From the NCBI GenBank assembly GCA_902774145.1, contig CACYHC010000014.1, forward strand, positions 1-52,994: a DNA stretch of 52,994 nt. The letters run 5' to 3'. A program made the translations under genes and the position numbers. Below, piece after piece: positions 42,805 to 47,549 of the stretch (its first letter is position 1; each line of letters opens with the position of its first letter). This DNA is from an uncultured Bacteroidia bacterium. Its GTDB lineage: Bacteria; Bacteroidota; Bacteroidia; Bacteroidales; UBA932. The notes beneath the pieces were generated by a model. The model did no database searches and had not been told where the DNA came from. It worked only from the letters and a program-made list of their open reading frames with translations.

Positions 42805-45965
<3,161 letters not shown>

Positions 45966-46052
45966 AGTATTTCGTTTTTCGTTTTTCTCTGTCTCCAGAT
46001 AGACAAAGATAGTTAAAGTTTTTTGATAATTTTGATAAATTTGCGGTTAGTT
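45966..46052. promoter_or_regulatory. Divergent promoters of recA and rlmN-recX, with a small inverted repeat
   Basis: Minus strand: TATCTTTG (46011-46004) gives a leader of about 38 nt for recA; no TTG is seen 19-22 nt upstream. Plus strand: TAAATTTG (46036-46043) lies 9 nt before the rlmN-recX ATG. An inverted repeat TGTCT-N6-AGACA (45990-46005) overlaps the edge of the recA -7 box and could be an operator. The recA leader also repeats the word TTTTTCG. Confidence 0.5.
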
Positions 46053-47549
46053 ATGAAAAATAGGTTGCTGGGAAAAAATCTGGAAGAACTGGAGGCGGTT
46101 GCCCTCGACGCGGGGCTGAAAAAATTCGCCGGCAGGCAGCTCGCGCAGTGGCTCTACGAAAAGCGGACGGGGGATTTTGCGGCGATGACGAACCTCTCCG
46201 CCGCCGCCCGCCAGACGCTCGCCGAACGCTGGGACACCGGCCTTCAGCCCTACGAACAGGTCGCCCAGTCCGCCGACGGCACCCGCAAATACCTTTTCGC
46301 GGTCGAATGCGCCCACGGCGGCAAAACCGAACGCAGCCTCATCGAAGCGGTGATGATTCCGGACGGCGACCGCCGCACGCTCTGCGTATCGTCGCAGGCG
46401 GGCTGCAAGATGGGCTGCAAATTCTGCATGACGGGCCGCCAGGGCTTTCACGGCAACCTGGACGCCGCGGACATTCTGAACCAGATTCTCTCCATCGACG
46501 AAGCGGCGGAGCTCACCAACATCGTCTTTATGGGAATGGGCGAGCCGCTGGACAACTACGAACAACTCTCGCGCGCCCTGACGGTCCTCACGGCGCCCTG
46601 GGGCTTCGCCTGGAGCCCGAAACGCATCACCGTATCGACCATCGGCGTGCTCCCCGCCCTGCGGCGCTACCTCGACGAGTTCTCCTGCCACCTGGCCGTC
46701 AGCTTGCACAACCCCTTCCCCGACGCCCGCGAAGCGATGATGCCCGTCCAGAAGGCCTGGCCCGCGGAAGAGGTGCTTGCACTCATCCGCAACTACGACT
46801 TCTCCGGACAGCGGCGCGTCAGCTTCGAATACACGATGTTCGCGGGCTACAACGACACCCCCGCCCACGCGGACGCCCTGGCCCGGCTGTTGCGCGGCAT
46901 CGAGTGCCGGGTGAACCTCATCCGCTTCCACCGCATTCCGGACTTTCCGCTCCAGAGCAGCAGCCAGCAGCGGATGGAGGCCTTCCGCGACCGGCTCGGC
47001 CACAGCGGCATCACCTGCACGATCCGTGCGTCGAGGGGCGAAGACATCTCCGCCGCCTGCGGCATGCTCGCCGGAAAAAAACGGGAAGAAGGGGGCAAGA
47101 AGACCGCCGATGACGAAGCGCAGGCGCTCTCGCATTTCCAGGCCCAGTGCGCGCGCCGGGAATACTGCAGCAAGGACTTGCTGCGCAAAATCACGGAGCG
47201 TCTGGGCGGCGATACCGAAGCGGCGCAGCGCATTCTGGAAGCCCTGAAAAAGGACAATTACCTCTCCGATGCGCGCTATGCGGCGGCGTTCGCGCGGGAG
47301 AAAGCGGCGCTGACCGGCTGGGGACCGATGAAAATCCGCCTCGCGCTGCGTGCCAAGGGAGTGGACGAAGAGGATATTTTCGAAGCGCTGAAGAGCATCG
47401 ATGCACAGGCCGCCGACGCGAAGCTCGAAAAACTGCTTGCAGCCAAACGCAGGCAGCTTGAAGGCGACCCGGCGGCCCGCCTCAAACTGATTCGCTACGC
47501 CCTTTCGCGCGGCTATTCCTATGCCGAAATCGAACATTTAATCCCGTAA
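46053..47549 (+). CDS. rlmN: RlmN-RecX fusion: rRNA/tRNA adenine-C2 methyltransferase joined to RecA modulator
   Basis: One 498-residue frame holds two proteins. Residues 1-340 are a complete RlmN, a radical-SAM enzyme that makes m2A2503 in 23S rRNA and m2A37 in tRNA. Its cluster is CKMGCKFC (Cys118, Cys122, Cys125), with GMGEPLDNYE and the methyl-carrying Cys336 in ISAACGMLAG. A charged linker (341-352) leads into a full RecX (about 353-498): CARREYCSKDLLRKI, EALKKDNYLSDARYAAAFAREK, GPMKIRLALRAKGV, ALSRGYSYAEIEHLI. RecX normally binds and controls RecA filaments, and recA is the divergent neighbour. The linker codons contain seven A (47075-47081) in a A_AAA_AAA arrangement; a -1 shift there would meet TGA at 47111 and release RlmN alone. 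A sequencing indel is possible. Confidence 0.88.
   Translation: MKNRLLGKNLEELEAVALDAGLKKFAGRQLAQWLYEKRTGDFAAMTNLSAAARQTLAERWDTGLQPYEQVAQSADGTRKYLFAVECAHGGKTERSLIEAVMIPDGDRRTLCVSSQAGCKMGCKFCMTGRQGFHGNLDAADILNQILSIDEAAELTNIVFMGMGEPLDNYEQLSRALTVLTAPWGFAWSPKRITVSTIGVLPALRRYLDEFSCHLAVSLHNPFPDAREAMMPVQKAWPAEEVLALIRNYDFSGQRRVSFEYTMFAGYNDTPAHADALARLLRGIECRVNLIRFHRIPDFPLQSSSQQRMEAFRDRLGHSGITCTIRASRGEDISAACGMLAGKKREEGGKKTADDEAQALSHFQAQCARREYCSKDLLRKITERLGGDTEAAQRILEALKKDNYLSDARYAAAFAREKAALTGWGPMKIRLALRAKGVDEEDIFEALKSIDAQAADAKLEKLLAAKRRQLEGDPAARLKLIRYALSRGYSYAEIEHLIP

Follow-up and report, generated by a model that had tools for sequence, protein, structure and literature searches.

A single reading frame that joins an RNA methyltransferase to a regulator of RecA raises two questions: whether it is a real fusion of two genes, and whether their union has a functional meaning. 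We have studied such a frame in the window, a stretch of 52,994 nucleotides from an uncultured species of Bacteroidales. The frame lies on the forward strand at 46053..47549 and has 498 codons followed by a TAA stop. A preliminary description had read it as RlmN followed by RecX, with a radical-SAM CxxxCxxC motif and a methyl-carrying Cys336. Both points are borne out: the translation runs through 498 amino acids without any internal stop, and the cysteines are found by alignment to E. coli RlmN. No terminator-like sites were found on the forward strand within the frame. Our main reading, to which we assign a probability of about 80%, is that two genes have fused and that the resulting sequence would encode one bifunctional protein, RlmN-RecX.

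The RlmN part comprises residues 1–345 (46053..47087, forward strand). The enzyme methylates 23S rRNA at A2503 and some tRNAs at A37. The family model TIGR00048 matches residues 2–351 with a score of 328.6 bits, which exceeds the curated cut-off of 290, and the domains RlmN_N and Radical_SAM are both above cut-off in the fused protein. The [4Fe-4S]/SAM motif CxxxCxxC is formed by C118, C122 and C125 (46404..46427, forward strand). Two further catalytic cysteines complete the set expected of an RlmN: C111 (46383..46385, forward strand), which precedes the cluster motif and which we take to be the equivalent of Cys118 in E. coli RlmN, and the methyl-carrying C336 (47058..47060, forward strand), presumably equivalent to Cys355. 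The catalytic roles of all these aligned cysteines are assumed from the E. coli enzyme. As a measure of conservation we used 22 of the 77 available unfused RlmN sequences: out of 125 columns which are invariant in them, 121 are unchanged in all four fused proteins, those of the window and of three relatives described below.

RecX, which binds RecA filaments and limits them, occupies approximately residues 352–498, with a conserved core at residues 366–498 (47148..47546, forward strand). RecX_HTH2 is found at residues 405–446 with 54.3 bits, over a Pfam cut-off of 26, and in the fused proteins of the relatives L031, L032 and L033 it reaches 56.5, 59.4 and 62 bits. RecX_HTH3 is a weak match in the correct place: it has 21.2 bits, short of the 26 set by Pfam, and 24.8, 24.8 and 20.2 bits in the same three relatives. 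The NCBIfam RecX models also match, none of them at cut-off (the best is NF001065, 67.8 against 175 bits); we take these equivalog models to be lineage-narrow. In 27 of the 61 available unfused RecX sequences we found 35 columns with at least 90% conservation, and 32 of them are unchanged in all four fused proteins. The fused protein has only one match at E ≤ 0.001 in the window's own genome, and therefore no separate copy of rlmN or recX is seen in this draft, which is 96.88% complete.

A structure predicted with AlphaFold2 from an alignment of 53 sequences has a mean pLDDT of 90.3 and a pTM of 0.71; in this alignment most RecX rows have a few N-terminal residues placed far upstream. The pLDDT is at least 90 in 360 of the 498 residues and lies between 50 and 70 in 42 of them. 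The junction blocks 331–340 and 341–350 have mean values of 70 and 65, and low stretches are also present within RlmN itself, at 121–130 and 181–190 (66 and 71). Foldseek relates the first fold to E. coli RlmN (3rfa, E 9e-30, TM 0.85 by target length) and the second one to the RecX structures 3d5l, 3dfg, 3e3v and 3c1d, with E values from 4e-6 to 6e-5. The model gives two known folds in one chain.

The same fusion is found in three other species. A pattern scan of species genomes, limited to the best 80 of 470 loci, showed the whole fused protein in an unbroken frame in L031 (isolate Tb.RUG.181), L032 (Goat_Rumen) and L033 (Water_buffalos_Rumen). Their identity to the window protein is 85–87% in L031 and L032 and 68–69% in L033; for the best segment it is 86% in L031, 85% in L032 and 68% in L033. 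These loci correspond to G249, G292 and G271 of our genus set, as a 1000-base stretch is identical in each case. In this set of 400 genomes, 387 of which have some match, an unbroken full-query match is present in at least four genomes including that of the window, among the matches listed. The sets examined overlap with each other. Beyond the window's own fusion, none was found among the matches listed in the samples of the family (199 genomes, 192 with a match), the order (295, all with a match) and the phylum (148, 147 with a match). A divergent fusion outside the matches listed in any of these four sets could be missed. In one further genome (G127, locus L034) rlmN and recX share a frame and are separated by a TGA.

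We have classified the gene order in 81 loci: the window and the 80 best of 470 (L031–L110). The commonest arrangement has a patatin-lipase gene between rlmN and recX (57 loci); in nine more a patatin gene follows rlmN and the locus ends before recX. The two genes are adjacent in seven loci (L034, L050, L053, L056, L057, L084 and L095) and fused in four. Another gene lies between them in three loci, and in one the order could not be determined. The slot between rlmN and recX is occupied in different species by patatin-Omp85, Peptidase_C26, DUF2207 or nothing. These assignments come from one Pfam example per type: patatin with Omp85_2 in L035, where POTRA is below cut-off, Peptidase_C26 in L102, and DUF2207 on the opposite strand in L064. 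The window's own genome yielded no patatin domain; the control was positive in 9 of 14 genomes. Other genera of the same family likewise have patatin between the two genes, in four stretches (L136–L139), so that this order is favoured as the older state. Two other genera of the family (L140, genome G550, and L141, genome G448) have recX directly after rlmN, in the same frame and with a stop between them. Two tandem patatin-like genes follow rlmN in L133 and L135 (genomes G612 and G597 of the family). We also came across apparent rlmN-patatin frames of 1196, 1221, 1174 and 1147 amino acids (G270, G508, G320 and G612); they are separate genes, since in all four a stop precedes the in-frame patatin gene.

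A tree was calculated from the RlmN parts of the 81 loci, with ultrafast bootstrap and SH-aLRT supports. The four fused proteins form one side of a branch with supports of 100 and 97. The fused state requires a single change on the tree, against a mean of 4.0 when the states are shuffled, and none of 500 shuffles was as low. The adjacent state takes three changes, just one of which is forced by strongly supported branches, so that the middle gene was likely, though not provably, lost more than once. The locus of undetermined order, L041, was placed with those having another gene in between, which inflates the changes of that class and of the patatin class and leaves the fused and adjacent states unaffected. 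In the simplest history the middle gene was probably lost, and the stop codon of rlmN was then lost in an ancestor of the four species; we infer this order of events from the comparison of sequences. Whether L034, with its single TGA, represents a step toward the fusion we are unsure: its branch in the tree is long and joins another long branch.

The region upstream of the fused frame bears on how special the arrangement is. The gene recA is found on the reverse strand at 44943..45965, 87 bp away, a divergent neighbour as the preliminary description had stated. The idea that this neighbour makes the arrangement special is not supported: 59 of the 81 loci, fused or not, have recA upstream with the opposite orientation, counted without requiring it to be the immediate neighbour, and divergent recA is therefore background. 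In 20 loci there is no recA upstream within the locus and in two the upstream sequence is too short. In L035 the gene next to rlmN on its upstream side is a membrane-transport-like one of the same orientation (1904–2998, identified by eye), and recA is therefore not the immediate neighbour.

Just before the ATG of rlmN there is a promoter-like -7 element, TAnnTTTG (46036..46043, forward strand), which follows the consensus given in a section of PMC7366714. L032 and L033 share it, but in L031 the 40 nt before the ATG lack it. In the 80 loci with sufficient upstream sequence (one of the 81 was left out), the element appears within 40 nt of the ATG in 67, against 3.2 expected from base shuffles, and in 38 of these 67 it is placed only 4–6 nt before the ATG. 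This suggests a conserved rlmN mRNA which would be leaderless or nearly so. According to a section of the same paper, 5' UTRs under 10 nt occur in only about 3.7% of cases in B. thetaiotaomicron (PMC7366714). An alternative start, the TTG at 46023, was not adopted, since it precedes the element.

Between the two domains lie the linker and the N-terminal edge of RecX, residues 346–365 (47088..47147, forward strand), whose length differs by whole codons among the four species. It is the fastest-changing part of the frame. In pairwise counts dN/dS is 0.06–0.12 in the RlmN part (all six pairs), 0.11–0.21 in the RecX part (five pairs, the sixth being saturated) and 0.24–0.54 in the linker, the latter from three pairs with just 13–17 codons each, the rest being saturated. 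In comparisons with L033 synonymous sites are almost saturated, and the ratios from these pairs are therefore rough. Judged from these ratios, both domains are under purifying selection. A programmed frameshift of the dnaX type, which would release RlmN alone, was also considered. The window has a run of seven A at 47075–47081 (GGA AAA AAA CGG), followed by a TGA in the -1 frame at 47111. The run is six A long in L031, where the stretch read shows no stop in the -1 frame; L032 has GGA AAG AAA and L033 lacks such a run. We therefore reject it as a conserved device; frameshifting in the window's own species is possible.

Two other explanations of the long frame were considered. An error of assembly or sequencing might have erased a stop codon, and the window does come from a draft genome of 76 contigs. 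Yet the three other species, separately assembled, carry the fusion without a stop, which is the check in independently sequenced relatives that had been proposed for it, and the fusion is therefore not an assembly artefact. Their linkers also vary, both in sequence and, by multiples of a codon, in length, and such an error is close to negligible. The RlmN-RecX fusion is genuine and has been kept in four species of gut Bacteroidales. Alternatively the long frame may be made while RecX works as a separate protein, released by cleavage of the linker or started internally. The nearest candidate for internal initiation would be the ATG of Met338 (47064..47066, forward strand), the last in-frame ATG, GTG or TTG before the RecX core. 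An ATG is found at this end of RlmN in all the fused frames (TTG in L033), CTG codons are present further downstream in L031 and L033, and the linker is both variable and of lower model confidence. However the Met or Leu at 338 belongs to the motif CGMLAG/CGLLAG, which unfused RlmN also has, and its presence is therefore uninformative. The sequence preceding Met338 is G+C-rich, and between the end motif of RlmN and the RecX core no ATG, GTG or TTG is found in any of the four frames. RecX could arise separately through Met338, through CTG in L031 and L033 or through proteolysis of the linker; we judge that it works in this way to be unlikely.

Under the reading as one bifunctional protein, an mRNA would start near the TAnnTTTG element and would be translated into a single protein of about 55 kDa. 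Its RlmN half would methylate rRNA and tRNA, and its RecX half, held on a short linker, would bind RecA filaments and limit them. The main effect of the fusion would be a fixed 1:1 ratio, with the supply of RecX set by the expression of rlmN, and the fusion was probably retained because both halves still work. Of the interpretations proposed in the preliminary description, tied expression is the best supported, since in most related loci rlmN and recX already share a strand, as a rule with a single gene between them (57 of 81 loci); for a coupling of RNA modification to recombination or SOS we found no evidence, nor any pointer in the sequence, and a special role of recA is not supported. RNA methylation and RecA may be linked by regulation, and the fusion might even have been selected for such a link, if the substrate or Fe-S state of RlmN altered the activity of RecX or its placing on RecA. 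It has been kept since before the split of L033, over a path of 1.18 substitutions per site in the RlmN tree, and parts of a study of Enterococcus faecalis describe RlmN as sensitive to ROS through its Fe-S cluster and propose it as an Fe-S-based ROS sensor, although a direct reaction is unproven there (PMC10336011). Against such selection, the fusion is found in just 4 of the 400 genus genomes among the matches listed and its linker changes freely; a strong regulatory link is disfavoured by this narrow distribution and this freedom. Unfused recX lies beside rlmN in seven of the 81 loci as well as in L140 and L141, so that proximity alone could explain the merger. We consider selection for a regulatory link very improbable. 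A relay from redox state to recombination, in which oxidative loss of the [4Fe-4S] cluster of RlmN or its contact with RNA would alter the grip of RecX on RecA, appears more doubtful still; if true, translation tuning and recombinational repair would respond together. The join is most likely the merging of two neighbouring genes, rather than a proven link between translation and DNA repair.

Neither half is new. Their combination was not seen among the papers listed for the literature searched, or in passages of PMC9252578, PMC10336011 and PMC1839093, or, beyond the window itself, among the matches listed in the wider samples described above. In this two-domain architecture a RecA regulator is attached to an enzyme that methylates RNA, and its history is readable: loci with an intervening gene, pairs of genes that touch and fused frames are all visible in relatives. 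It offers a natural test of whether unrelated housekeeping activities, once fused, gain regulation or just reflect the layout of the genes. It is also a warning that the rule by which fusion implies a functional link may fail for RlmN and RecX.

When compared with known systems, the fused protein is like RlmN (TIGR00048, the C2-methyltransferase of 23S rRNA A2503 and tRNA A37) in its whole domain, its cysteines and its fold. The unfused RlmN of nine relatives ends 9 to 20 residues past the methyl-carrying cysteine, whereas the fused RlmN continues into RecX. With RecX (the RecA regulator, PF02631) it shares the three-helix-repeat fold and the conserved residues, but here RecX is carried on RlmN and lacks the usual start codon of its own. 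In E. coli, as described in parts of PMC9252578, recX is downstream of recA and co-transcribed with it, and RecA exceeds the RecX protein about 500-fold in amount. A further comparison is with the seven adjacent unfused pairs, which have the same order with nothing in between: they keep separate genes, in which rlmN ends at its own stop codon and recX begins with an ATG.
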